37,722 nt of DNA from IMG/VR virus record IMGVR_UViG_3300044970_001318, positions 1 through 37,722 of that record; one strand, 5' to 3'. Each line of letters begins with the position of its first letter. Position 1 is the stretch's first letter. Source of the DNA: a virus. The notes below the pieces were generated by a model. The model saw only the letters and a program-made list of their open reading frames with translations. It made no database searches and was not told the origin of the DNA. Below are positions 27,632-32,301 of the stretch, one piece after another. A program made the translations under genes and the position numbers.

Positions 27632-27802
27632 ATGGAAAAGAAAAAGGCTATTCCCCCCAAGAAAGCTGTGCCGCCCGCAAAAGGTAAAGCTGCTCCCCCT
27701 GTCAAAGGCAAAGGCGGTGCATCTGCTAAACAAACTGAAGCCCGCGACAAGTTTAAAGAAATGATTGCAAAGAAGAAAGAAGCTGCTGCCAAAAAGAAAT
27801 AA
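27632..27802 (+). CDS. Lys/Ala/Pro-rich histone-like protein, 56 aa
   Basis: MEKKKAIPPKKAVPPAKGKA then APPVKGKGGASAKQTEARDK and a Lys-rich end. Nearly a third of the residues are Lys, with Pro/Ala/Gly linkers as in histone H1 tails, so it probably coats nucleic acid, perhaps in the virion. The assignment comes from composition only. It has its own promoter box and is followed by the non-coding region. Confidence 0.65.
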   Translation: MEKKKAIPPKKAVPPAKGKAAPPVKGKGGASAKQTEARDKFKEMIAKKKEAAAKKK

Positions 27803-27920: not shown

Positions 27921-28137
27921 GATAGAGGTCAGGTCCCTGTGCGCGTTAGGCACATAGCCTAGAAGGCGACACACCTGATCCATCACACCACCCCTATTGC
28001 TCTGTCGGTAGGGTGCAGCCAAGTCCTCTAACACTTGGTTTGCGTGCTAAGTCCTGGATAACCAGGCCAGGGGGATGGCCTCTCCTGCATGTAACACCCC
28101 CTATGCCTCTCAACGATGCACAAACCTGGGGGTCACT
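27921..28137 (+). ncRNA. Structured non-coding region with several stable hairpins
   Basis: No believable frame is present. Hairpins seen: GGTCAGGT/ACCTGATC (27927-27934 with 27973-27980) closing TGTGC/GCACA (27938-27942 with 27950-27954) and GCCT/AGGC (27957-27967); CCAAGT/ACTTGG (28019-28038); CCTGG-ATAA-CCAGG (28053-28066); and ACCCCC with GGGGGT near 28095 and 28127. The first set forms a three-way-junction-like fold. I cannot match it to a named RNA family. With the tRNA-like element it explains most of the gene-free stretch 27803-28242. Confidence 0.45.
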
Positions 28138-28213
28138 CACCTGGTCCGAGACAATTGGATAGTACGGTTACTGCCGCTGCAGGACGATGTAGGTTCGAAT
28201 CCTATCCAGGTGC
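28138..28213 (+). tRNA. tRNA-like element without a normal anticodon arm
   Basis: CACCTGG (28138-28144) and CCAGGTG (28206-28212) form a perfect 7-bp acceptor stem. GTAGG-TTCGAAT-CCTAT (28189-28205) is a good T-arm that joins the acceptor directly, and TTGGATA gives a D-loop-like GG. The total of 76 nt is right for a tRNA. The D stem has a mismatch and no 5-bp stem with 7-nt loop and U33 can be drawn; CTGC-CGCT-GCAG forms instead. CCA is not encoded. It may be a degenerate tRNA, a mimic or an attachment-type sequence. Confidence 0.4.
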
Positions 28214-28242: not shown

Positions 28243-28875
28243 ATGAGCTACTTAAATCACAACCTGCCGACGTTCACCTGCTACATCCGAAACGAATTCT
28301 TATACAATCACAAACAAGGCCATGGTGACGTGACGTTATGCGACGTACACTCAGTGGCATCCCTGGAAAAACACGTACCTTTATTTGAGGTGTTCCTAGA
28401 GAATGGCGTCAACTGGACAAGGCGTCCGATCCATGCCCTTTGTTGGAAACCAGATGCGCCTAAGCCTGAGCTTAATGAGTGCATGTGGTGGGATTGTTTC
28501 TCTCCGTATATTGATGTACAGGTTAGGTCACGCCTCTCAAACTTACGTGCAGAGCTAATCAATTTCAAAGGTGAGAAGAAGGGTGGCATCTACATGTTTA
28601 CCCTTGATTGGTCTTGGGAATCCAAGTCAACCCTTAATACAAACTTCAGTGAAACACCTGAGCACAAGTGTGCACACTTTTTCCGAATGGACGACGGTAA
28701 TTTTTATGCGTACCCCAACAACCGAATCATTTGGTACGACGATGCATGGCTTAAGAATCGAATTGAAAAGAACCCTGGATACGAGATTGACTTGACTGAG
28801 TACAGTGTGGAGAACTCACGGATGATTGAAACGTCCGATCATTTCATATACGAGACATCCACTACGGACGGCTAA
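28243..28875 (+). CDS. Conserved cyanophage protein, 210 aa
   Basis: Starts MSYLNHNLPTFTCYIRNEFL; also shows CWKPDAPKPELNECMWWDCF, KGGIYMFTLDWSW and EHKCAHFFRMDDGNFYAYPN then NRIIWYD. I recall proteins with these stretches in cyanophages, without a known role. It is rich in Trp and Cys, with no membrane segment, and could be a soluble early protein. The start is fixed by the 21-nt spacing to TATACT. Confidence 0.8.
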   Translation: MSYLNHNLPTFTCYIRNEFLYNHKQGHGDVTLCDVHSVASLEKHVPLFEVFLENGVNWTRRPIHALCWKPDAPKPELNECMWWDCFSPYIDVQVRSRLSNLRAELINFKGEKKGGIYMFTLDWSWESKSTLNTNFSETPEHKCAHFFRMDDGNFYAYPNNRIIWYDDAWLKNRIEKNPGYEIDLTEYSVENSRMIETSDHFIYETSTTDG

Positions 28876-28892: not shown

Positions 28893-28915
28893 TAAGACAA
28901 CAATGATTGGCTTTG

Positions 28916-29164
28916 GTGCCAACTTCCAAGGAAATACTCCAGCGCAATAGACAGAAGTTTCTTGAGTACAAGAAGACTTTGAATTGCCAGCACTGTGGAC
29001 TGAATGATCATCGTGTCCTTGAGTTTCACCACATAGGCGAGAAGGACCATAACATATCAAATATGGTCAACCATGGATACGGCTGGCGCCGCATCGAAGA
29101 AGAGATAAAGAAATGTATTCCGCTGTGCTGCAATTGCCACAGGCTTGAACACTGGAGTGATTAA
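28916..29164 (+). CDS. HNH endonuclease, 82 aa
   Basis: CQHCG, VLEFHHIGEKDHNISNMVNH and CIPLCCNCHRLEH give a complete compact HNH with zinc knuckle (HH pair as the catalytic His and its partner). It is typical of small phage homing nucleases. GTG 28916 is preferred over the TTG at 28907 by promoter spacing; the first residues PTSKEILQRNRQKFLEY fit this family. Confidence 0.88.
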   Translation: MPTSKEILQRNRQKFLEYKKTLNCQHCGLNDHRVLEFHHIGEKDHNISNMVNHGYGWRRIEEEIKKCIPLCCNCHRLEHWSD

Positions 29165-29188
29165 CTATTCCTTAGGGTAGCTTTCTGC

Positions 29189-29194
29189 TAGAGT
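29189..29194 (+). promoter_or_regulatory. Extended -10 TGCTAGAGT for the HNH gene at 29215
   Basis: TAGAGT preceded by TGC ends 20 nt before the ATG at 29215. Confidence 0.45.
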
Positions 29195-29214
29195 GGCTGC
29201 ACTTGCAACTTTCT

Positions 29215-29679
29215 ATGAGCACGCAACGACACGGGCATTCTTTAAATGGAAAACGTTCTTTGACACACTCTACTTGGCACAACATGAAAACTCGTTGCCA
29301 AAATTCAAACACAAAAGCATATCGAAATTATGGCGCAAAAGGAATAAAAGTTTGCAGTAGATGGGATATATTTGAAAACTTTTTAGAAGATATGGGAGAA
29401 AGACCCGGACCAAACTATTCGCTTGAACGTATTGATTCAAGCAAAAACTATTGTCCCGAAAACTGTAAATGGGCGACGCGCACGGAACAAAACAGAAATC
29501 GCTCCATGTGCATTCTTATTACTATCGACGGCAGGCGTCAAACAGTAAAAGAATGGGCTATAGAGTTAGGTATAAATCGTCAAACAATTGAACGCCGTTT
29601 AAAACTAGGCTGGTCACATTACGATGCGGTAATGCAACCAGTTATTTTAGGTCAAAAATTCAAGAAGACCTCAGGGTAG
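29215..29679 (+). CDS. HNH/AP2-like homing endonuclease, 154 aa
   Basis: Begins STQRHGHSLNGKRSLTHSTW (start chosen by promoter spacing), then MKTRCQNSNTKAYRNYGAKG and IKVCSRWDIFENFLEDMGER, the metal-binding part, and YSLERIDSSKNYCPENCKWA then TRTEQNRNRS, the HNH core. The C-terminal part (WAIELGINRQTIERRLKLGW) is a helix-turn-helix that would recognise the target. Same core as the nuclease at 4198. The end overlaps the Dps gene tail to tail by 20 bases. Confidence 0.9.
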   Translation: MSTQRHGHSLNGKRSLTHSTWHNMKTRCQNSNTKAYRNYGAKGIKVCSRWDIFENFLEDMGERPGPNYSLERIDSSKNYCPENCKWATRTEQNRNRSMCILITIDGRRQTVKEWAIELGINRQTIERRLKLGWSHYDAVMQPVILGQKFKKTSG

Positions 29680-30214
29680 CTTTGATTTGCCAAGCAGCTT
29701 TAAAAGCCTGGCCCACGAGGTCAGCCATGTAGTTCTGGATGTCAATAGCCCCTACCTTGGCGGCCACAGGCTCTAGTTTCTTGGCCTTCATGCCAAGCTC
29801 CTCAAGGTTCTTGTAGTATACACCAAGCATTTCAGTGCCTTTATAGGAAGTCACTGCTTGCATGGGAGGAGCAGCATCCTTGAGACCACACCCACACATG
29901 GGCATCAGATAATCCATGCTACGGACAAACTCAGCAAGGGTATCGAACTGCTCAAGGTGCGCTTCGTACTGATCTTTGAGGAAGGCATGGACGCCCAAGA
30001 AGTTACCACCCTCGTAGTTCAAATGGATCAGATGACTCTGGGTCTCTAGTTCCTTTAGGTAGGCGCAAAGAGAGATGCACTGCTGGATGAAAGCACCCAC
30101 ATCACCACCAGCCTTGGACTTGGCAGGAGCTTTTGGCTTGTCCTGGGGCTGAGGAACAGCTTGAAGCTGAGGGGCTTCAACAGCCTGGTACTGTTGGGGT
30201 GCAGGGGTATACAT
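29660..30214 (-). CDS. Dps/ferritin-like protein, 184 aa
   Basis: The four ferroxidase residues of Dps are present with exact spacing: His64, His76, Asp91 and Glu95 (SHLIHLNYEGGNFLGVHAFL then KDQYEAHLEQFDTLAE), equal to His31, His43, Asp58 and Glu62 of L. innocua Dps. The fold would oxidise iron with peroxide and store it, or protect DNA. The first 38 residues are a Pro/Gln/Lys-rich tail, which in Dps proteins can bind DNA. The length of 184 is within range. Adjacent -10 TAAACT 20 nt upstream. Likely protects DNA in the infected cell under light stress. Confidence 0.8.
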   Translation of the reverse strand: MYTPAPQQYQAVEAPQLQAVPQPQDKPKAPAKSKAGGDVGAFIQQCISLCAYLKELETQSHLIHLNYEGGNFLGVHAFLKDQYEAHLEQFDTLAEFVRSMDYLMPMCGCGLKDAAPPMQAVTSYKGTEMLGVYYKNLEELGMKAKKLEPVAAKVGAIDIQNYMADLVGQAFKAAWQIKATLRSS

Positions 30215-30263: not shown

Positions 30264-31592
30264 TTATCTTGAGATTTCCTCCCAGTCCATTGATGCATGC
30301 ACCGTAGAAGTACCTGCGGCAGCCGTTAAAACAAGACTTAACTCATACGGAGTATTCGTTAAACCGTCTCGCTCTAGCTGAAAACTAAACAATGCTTCTT
30401 TGAGGATGTCAATAGGAGCACTACTTTGATTACTAGAAGAGAAATACCCTTGCGCAAGAATACGACCACCCGTTGTAGCAGTACCTGTTAAGTTATATTC
30501 CACACTAGAGCTGGTTCCAGCACTAACCCAAGTGCCACCTGTAGTTGTAGCAGTAGCAACAACACGCCAAAGATAGTTGGTACTACTAACACCCAGCATT
30601 GAAAGGGCAGTAAGAATCACAATTGCATCTAAAGCGGTTGACTTAAGACGCAATGAGATAACAGGATAGAAAGTACCAGCCGTCGTTAAGTTATACGGTG
30701 CAGTAATGGTTGTACCAATAGCTTGTTGCAGGCCACGTAATTCATAGCCACCTTCCGAAAGTACGGTAGAACAAATTTGTTTTAGTGTGCTGCTACTAGC
30801 AGTTGTATTGGTATTGGTGATTTCGTAACGAAGCGGAAGTGATGCCGTGGTGATATAGGTTGAAGTAATTAAGTTGGCATGATGGAATGAATGGCAGTGG
30901 ACAAATTGACCGTTGATAATAAAACCAAGGCGCACCGTACCAAGCCCAAGCCATTCAATATCCATCCAAAAGATTTGAGCTTTGCTTAAATCCAGTGTGT
31001 ACCCAGATGGACCTGTGCCATCCATTGGGTCTACATTCCAGTCAGCCTTAGCAACTTTGGTGTCAACAGGAGAACCTGTAACTGAGCTACGCTCAACAAG
31101 AGATACGGTAGTACCATCCTGCTCAATGAACATACCATTACTTGCGCCATAGTAGCCAACACGTTGCCGCAGATTTGCTTTAGCTGCGTTCATCACAAAC
31201 GTGGACATAACCAACAGGGATTTCCCTGGCTGGTATGAAAAACATTTTGTTGTTTCTCGTACAATTGAAGAACCAGAAGCTGTGGTTGTATTGAGTGTTA
31301 CTAGTCCAGCATTAGCATCGAACGTTGTGGTACCACCAGTTCCTGTAGCCGTGGTCCACAGGCCATTATCTTTGTAGCGATGGCTTGAATCAAATAGTGT
31401 TAAAGGACTAGCAACACGTAAACGGCCAAATGCATCAGAGCCCGTACCACCAGCTTGAACAGTAACCGTCCCACTAGTTGTCGTTGTTACTTCAATAGGT
31501 TGTCCACTAGCAGTAGTGACGACAATTCCAGAACCGTAATCGGCGTAACCAGAGGTACCATCGCCGTAGTCATTGGTATAACGAATAATCAC
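30264..31592 (-). CDS. Virion structural protein (fibre or head decoration), 442 aa
   Basis: The frame is open to 31847, but that part overlaps the opposite gene, whereas GTG 31592 starts IIRYTNDYGDGTSGYADYGS, a natural N-terminus. The protein is beta-rich with many Thr, Ser and Gly, and shows AFGRLRVASPLTLFDSSHRY, QIFWMDIEWLGLGTVRLGFI and SSVEYNLTGTATTGGRILAQ, segments I have seen in phage structural proteins. No enzyme site is seen. It is divergent from the gene at 31669. Confidence 0.75.
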   Translation of the reverse strand: MIIRYTNDYGDGTSGYADYGSGIVVTTASGQPIEVTTTTSGTVTVQAGGTGSDAFGRLRVASPLTLFDSSHRYKDNGLWTTATGTGGTTTFDANAGLVTLNTTTASGSSIVRETTKCFSYQPGKSLLVMSTFVMNAAKANLRQRVGYYGASNGMFIEQDGTTVSLVERSSVTGSPVDTKVAKADWNVDPMDGTGPSGYTLDLSKAQIFWMDIEWLGLGTVRLGFIINGQFVHCHSFHHANLITSTYITTASLPLRYEITNTNTTASSSTLKQICSTVLSEGGYELRGLQQAIGTTITAPYNLTTAGTFYPVISLRLKSTALDAIVILTALSMLGVSSTNYLWRVVATATTTGGTWVSAGTSSSVEYNLTGTATTGGRILAQGYFSSSNQSSAPIDILKEALFSFQLERDGLTNTPYELSLVLTAAAGTSTVHASMDWEEISR

Positions 31593-31640
31593 TTTGCCAA
31601 CACAGATACTTTCTATTAGTTTAGTTGAGGCAACCTTTGT

Positions 31641-31646
31641 TAGACT
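31641..31646 (+). promoter_or_regulatory. -10 element TAGACT for the gene at 31669
   Basis: TAGACT ends 22 nt before the ATG at 31669. A weaker TAATAG (31613-31618, minus strand) lies 20 nt before GTG 31592. Confidence 0.4.
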
Positions 31647-31668
31647 TGTAAAAAATAGGTTATAAACA

Positions 31669-32301
31669 ATGCCTTTAGTACGCGAGAACTCACAACTGTA
31701 TGAAGTTATCAAAGTCGGTACAGTTGCTGGTGAAACTTTAAATACTTCAATTTCAGGTGTAACACCATCTAACGGTACTCTGCCAGTTAGCGATAGTAAT
31801 AGTAGCCTTACCGTAGATGGCAGGGCATTTCGTGCTGCAGTAACCATTACTCGTCCCAGTAATACTACTGCTTATACTGCCGGTGATGTTGTTGGTAGCA
31901 CTAGTGGCAGTGCAATCATTACATTGCCCAGCATTGGTCCTAGCGGCGGTTATGTATTGCTTCAATCAGTGCGTCTTCTGATTGGTAGCACCAGTGTCCC
32001 CAGTGGCATGGGCGCATTCCGGCTCCATCTATATACCGCAACTCCCAATGCTATTGCAGATAATTCTCCTTTTGATTTGATGAGTAGCGAGGTAGCTAAC
32101 TACGCTGGTTATATTGATTTACCTGCACCGCAAGACCTTGGCAGTACGTTATTCACGCAGGCTGATTACTGTGGTACGGCCATTAAGCTAGCCACTGCAA
32201 GCACCAGTTTGTTTGCCGAGCTGGAAACTCGTGGTGCATTTACTCCCGCAAGTGCCACTTTATTTGATCTCCGCGTGATGACGCTGGAGGCAGGACTCTG
32301 A
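31669..32301 (+). CDS. Virion structural protein, 210 aa
   Basis: The product MPLVRENSQLYEVIKVGTVA onward is beta-rich and Ser/Thr/Gly-rich, with SLTVDGRAFRAAVTITRPSN and RLLIGSTSVPSGMGAFRLHL, a pattern common in phage tail or head fibre proteins. No enzyme motif. It overlaps the next gene by one base (TGATG). Probably a component of the same structure as the two genes downstream. Confidence 0.7.
   Translation: MPLVRENSQLYEVIKVGTVAGETLNTSISGVTPSNGTLPVSDSNSSLTVDGRAFRAAVTITRPSNTTAYTAGDVVGSTSGSAIITLPSIGPSGGYVLLQSVRLLIGSTSVPSGMGAFRLHLYTATPNAIADNSPFDLMSSEVANYAGYIDLPAPQDLGSTLFTQADYCGTAIKLATASTSLFAELETRGAFTPASATLFDLRVMTLEAGL

Follow-up and report, generated by a model that had tools for sequence, protein, structure and literature searches.

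Dps is a bacterial protein that takes up iron and protects DNA against damage. Phage-borne members of the family have been described before. Dps was reported in Lactobacillus phages and in the gut 'Gratiaviridae', for which protection against oxidative damage was proposed (PMC6669764, PMC8008677); these belong to other hosts and lineages than the S-EIV1-like phages treated below. The kuraviruses and their relatives (phiEco32 gp67, SU10 CDS67, Salmonella phage 7-11, Aeromonas phage APT65, and Proteus phage Privateer) encode Dps proteins with the same ligand spacing as the protein described here. In all, relatives of the APT65 Dps occur in more than 130 phage records, most of them phiEco32-like. 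The kuravirus-type proteins were, however, distant from the S-EIV1-like clade in the phylogenetic tree, and they mostly carry HWN at the ferroxidase site, but APT65 has HLN (see below). Phage-borne Dps as such is already known, and our data give no support for a new kind of system. Among the papers available to us, a literature search on cyanophage ferritin or Dps yielded none on the gene considered here.

Assignment of the gene and its ferroxidase site

The DNA analyzed (hereafter, the window) is the whole stretch of 37,722 nucleotides of the IMG/VR virus record IMGVR_UViG_3300044970_001318. The following features were assigned to the gene.

29660..30214, minus strand: Dps-type ferritin, 184 aa with an ATG start (Pfam Ferritin, PHROG 3636, AlphaFold2 fold, S-EIV1 orthologue)
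29930..30025, minus strand: ferroxidase motif H64-x11-H76-x14-D91-x3-E95 (HLNYEGGNFLGVHAFLKDQYEAHLEQFDTLAE), found in 82/82 loci and 13/13 homologues
30110..30214, minus strand: N-terminal tail, residues 1-35, Lys/Pro/Gln-rich and predicted to be disordered (pLDDT, alignment)

The open reading frame matched the Pfam Ferritin family (PF00210; 38.3 bits, cut-off 24.5) and PHROG 3636, 'DNA binding protein' (87 bits, E = 2.7e-24). The best score with the NCBIfam Dps equivalog subgroups (PRK09448 and others) was 16.8 bits against a cut-off of 114; since these equivalogs model narrow subgroups, the failed cut-off excludes those subgroups and not the wider Dps family. The solved structures closest by sequence were those of Campylobacter, Treponema, and other Dps-family proteins. 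The ligands H64, H76, D91, and E95 are spaced by 12/15/4, which is canonical for Dps.

A monomer model was built with AlphaFold2 from 35 aligned rows, taken from the window and IMG/VR (mean pLDDT, 78.5; mostly 85-97 in the core; low values mainly at residues 1-35 and in a loop near residues 101-110). The helices of the model (residues 36-66, 72-100, 105-114, 126-153, and 157-183) correspond to helices A, B, BC, C, and D of Dps, that is, a four-helix ferritin-like bundle that has the short BC helix characteristic of Dps and lacks a fifth helix. A ferritin of the Ftn/Bfr type was ruled out by the Dps-type ligand spacing and the absence of the fifth helix. When the model was compared with the PDB, the matches were mostly Dps or Dps-like; Dps-family proteins appeared throughout the first 50 Foldseek rows. 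The highest Z in VIA-align was 20.2, and the rmsd was 1.6-2.9 over 131-151 residues. Dodecameric Dps structures were the best matches, and the leading entries included B. subtilis MrgA, Thermosynechococcus Dps, and Nostoc Dps4. Note that unrelated helical bundles can score a Z of about 13; thus, the agreement among the listed proteins and the ligand positions carry more weight than Z alone. Bacterial Dps proteins (Thermosynechococcus, 2c41; B. subtilis MrgA, 2chp; Campylobacter, 3kwo) have the same fold and ferroxidase ligands, but their identity to the phage protein is roughly 10-25%, and the phage lineage stands apart by its PQ-rich leader and the replacement of Trp by Leu.

The conservation of the motif was evaluated in 82 loci (80 IMG/VR stretches, the window, and S-EIV1), which were selected for homology, without regard to the motif; a search of IMG/VR with the protein had turned up 224 stretches encoding relatives, of which the best 80 were taken. 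The regular expression for the ferroxidase motif was satisfied in every one of these loci (62 distinct proteins). The motif was also present in all 13 uncut homologues from contigs found via the primase, an independent marker; some of these contigs (e.g., G210 and G228) had also supplied loci of the first set of 82. Throughout the lineage, the tryptophan that follows the first ferroxidase histidine in typical Dps (HWN) is replaced by leucine (HLN), so the kinetics of the site may differ. By Nei-Gojobori codon comparison, the median dN/dS was about 0.09 for the Dps core versus 0.23 for the faster-evolving N-terminal tail, where the rows had been picked with the motif and the pairs are not independent, and the invariance of residues in these rows was not counted as evidence of conservation. 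The Dps core is under strong purifying selection. The loss of the tryptophan beside the site would suit a protein that has retained the fold without ferroxidase activity and acts as a scaffold or a DNA-binding protein; we consider this very unlikely, because the four ligands are invariant despite divergence to about 63% identity and a scaffold would not need them.

The initial annotation had described a phage-encoded Dps/ferritin-like protein with four ferroxidase residues at the exact spacing of Dps and a Lys/Pro/Gln-rich tail ahead of the core, and had proposed structure prediction as a check. The matches to Pfam and PHROG 3636, the predicted fold, and the ligand spacing back this assignment; the ligands recurred in all loci and homologues compared; the monomer is predicted to adopt the Dps fold, in agreement with the PDB matches; and the tail was confirmed in most members. 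The replacement of tryptophan by leucine had been missed.

Phage lineage and origin of the gene

A tblastn search of 50,697 phage records gave a single match at E of 0.01 or better, namely Synechococcus phage S-EIV1 (KJ410740), the orthologue of which (AHV82153.1, annotated as 'DNA-binding ferritin-like protein') has 63-66% identity. Many genes of the window, among them those for exonuclease, primase, glycosyltransferase, and endolysin, have S-EIV1 counterparts in corresponding order, and a 1.9-kb stretch matched S-EIV1 at the DNA level; the window is therefore part of an S-EIV1-like cyanophage genome, 37.7 kb of it. S-EIV1 resembles the window in the ferroxidase motif, in the kind of tail, and in the wider neighbourhood (primase, exonuclease, and glycosyltransferase genes), but the neighbours of its Dps gene are tail-like genes and one annotated as sulfate adenylyltransferase, where the window has a PHROG 1645 gene. 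The genome of S-EIV1 is 79 kb, and the longest relatives are mostly 78-88 kb. Dps was encoded by seven of the eight contigs of at least 72 kb that were found via the primase, and contig G233 was the sole near-complete relative among them without it. Dps is a near-core gene of the S-EIV1-like lineage, with all of the ligands kept and leucine in place of the usual tryptophan, which is of some note. The reading of the initial annotation that the gene lies in a phage of phototrophs agrees with the S-EIV1 orthologue and the shared gene order. Its remark that this is not a standard cyanophage gene stands for the phage records at large, among which only S-EIV1 matched at the level of an orthologue, but does not stand within the S-EIV1-like lineage, where the gene is nearly universal.

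As for photosynthesis genes, a psbA-type photosystem gene was found in G233 and G235 only and was absent from the other 24 of the 26 records tested. The presence of psbA together with the absence of Dps in G233 is a single case and forms no pattern.

In the tree, the phage Dps proteins formed one clade (100/100 support) outside the sampled cyanobacterial Dps groups; the stem of this clade is long, and its exact placement is unsure. A search of 194 cyanobacterial genomes with the phage profile gave two matches at E of 0.001 or better, both of which were weak. No relative was found in the GTDB contigs in a first scan with the phage alignment, and the plasmid Dps proteins had 28% or less identity to the phage protein. 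Recent capture from a cyanobacterial host was ruled out by the tree and the profile search. The chance that we are dealing with a recently caught host gene or an assembly artefact is practically negligible, in view of the separate long phage branch with its full support, the two weak matches among the 194 genomes, and the genes flanking Dps, which correspond to S-EIV1 genes on both sides. The gene was more likely acquired long ago, or from a source outside the sample, than taken recently from a host.

Gene neighbourhood and the virion

The surroundings of the gene include the following two features.

30264..31847, minus strand: upstream neighbour, homologue of PHROG 1645 'virion structural protein' (489 bits)
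29610..29641, minus strand: terminator-like hairpin, 13 pairs followed by TTTT, just past the Dps stop (consensus scan)

In 58 of the 91 loci, a PHROG 1645 gene precedes Dps in the same orientation at a distance of 8-90 nt. Relatives of the PHROG 1645 product are about 440 aa long, and the alignments begin at about residue 108; the open reading frames 30264-31847 (minus) and 31669-32301 (plus) overlap on opposite strands. Judging from the length of the relatives and this overlap at the 5' end, the true start of the gene is probably near residue 105-110. Terminator-like sites across the region were no more numerous than expected by chance, and the position of the hairpin fits the end of a transcription unit; the consensus scan for known promoters near Dps gave no excess over chance. 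The PHROG 1645 gene just upstream and the hairpin past the Dps stop suggest a shared late transcript, and from its position Dps is probably transcribed together with this virion gene, which would place it fairly late in infection.

This arrangement would also suit a virion or packaged protein, with a Dps shell in the phage head that protects or condenses the DNA or enters the cell with it. In the same direction point the matches of the viral structure search, which include Dps domains in 'prohead protease' proteins of uncultured phages, and a second conserved lysine-rich small protein encoded nearby. The SU10 Dps was moreover detected by mass spectrometry in concentrated phage; however, that sample was concentrated with PEG, not purified with CsCl, and also held early and middle proteins. 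In addition, the Dps genes of phiEco32, 7-11, and APT65 lie among nucleotide-metabolism genes and not among head genes, and S-EIV1 has no PHROG 1645 homologue beside Dps. We regard a packaged Dps as quite unlikely, and it is a little more doubtful still that the Dps of this lineage is virion-associated and travels with or around the packaged genome as the head's own defence against iron and peroxide.

Several further observations were made in these searches and in this part of the window. The 'prohead protease' entries with a Dps-fold region are BFVD A0A6J7XDU5, A0A6J7WPK9, and A0A6J7WIS1, and further viral structure matches of 498-679 aa hold a Dps domain; fusions of Dps to head proteins are possible in uncultured phages. 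Two small HNH-type open reading frames adjoin Dps on the opposite strand (28907-29679, plus), one of which (29203-29679, plus) shares its last 20 nt with the end of the Dps frame in a tail-to-tail arrangement. This frame had matches in only 7 of the 82 related loci, a pattern that would be expected if it encodes a mobile homing endonuclease. An abiF RNA (Rfam RF03085, 52 bits; 28097-28213, plus) directly precedes a tRNA-like sequence with a 7-bp acceptor stem and the T-arm TAGGTTCGAATCCTA, which ARAGORN called as tRNA-Asn only at a relaxed threshold. In locus L045 (7127-7238, minus), an abiF RNA again adjoins a tRNA. No AbiF protein was recognized among the neighbouring open reading frames tested. 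A 56-aa Lys/Ala/Pro-rich histone-H1-like protein (MEKKKAIPPKKAVPPAKGK...; 27632-27802, plus) has conserved counterparts in 38 related loci, S-EIV1 among them. A 210-aa protein (28243-28875, plus) matched PHROG 3704 'ferredoxin' without a Pfam match, and its S-EIV1 relative (31% identity) is annotated as 'PurM'; both labels look unreliable.

N-terminal tail and proposed role

Residues 1-35 are probably disordered according to the model (pLDDT 35-40 over residues 1-30). Most members of the lineage have a Pro/Gln-rich leader with the conserved end KPKxPxKSK. The charge of the tail varies: that of the window has 4 Lys and 3 acidic residues, and two relatives have 10-12 Lys/Arg. In the L306-L308 clade, the tail is shortened, acidic residues outnumber basic ones, and the tail lysines are largely missing. 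DNA binding through a basic tail is a trait of some Dps proteins only, and the N-terminal lysines of E. coli Dps bind DNA; by analogy, binding of DNA through the tail is plausible for most of the lineage. The L306-L308 clade argues that such binding is not essential to the family, and it would not be a fixed property of the lineage.

We consider it likely that the gene encodes a genuine phage Dps, a dodecameric mini-ferritin that would protect phage DNA from iron-driven oxidative damage; the iron detoxification and the DNA binding are inferred. Twelve subunits would form a shell with ferroxidase sites at the subunit interfaces, where Fe(II) freed in the infected photosynthetic cell would be oxidized, mainly with H2O2, and then stored as a ferric mineral. 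The removal of Fe(II) would lessen the harm done by hydroxyl radicals to phage DNA, both during replication and once packaged. The flexible lysine-bearing tail of most members may tether the shell to DNA, much as E. coli Dps uses its N-terminal lysines. The intact ligands and the tail lysines, which are not universal, would also agree with a main gain other than DNA protection, namely an iron store or supply for the phage or the host (turnover of the photosystem or ribonucleotide reductase). Dps shells have a small iron capacity relative to large ferritins, and no other iron genes were recognized in the window; we regard this main gain as unlikely, though deserving of some weight.

Dps is thus a selected, near-core gene for an oxidative-stress protein in a widespread freshwater cyanophage lineage, most sampled members of which lack psbA. 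A near-core Dps under selection makes iron and peroxide stress in infected phototrophs a testable cost for the phage.
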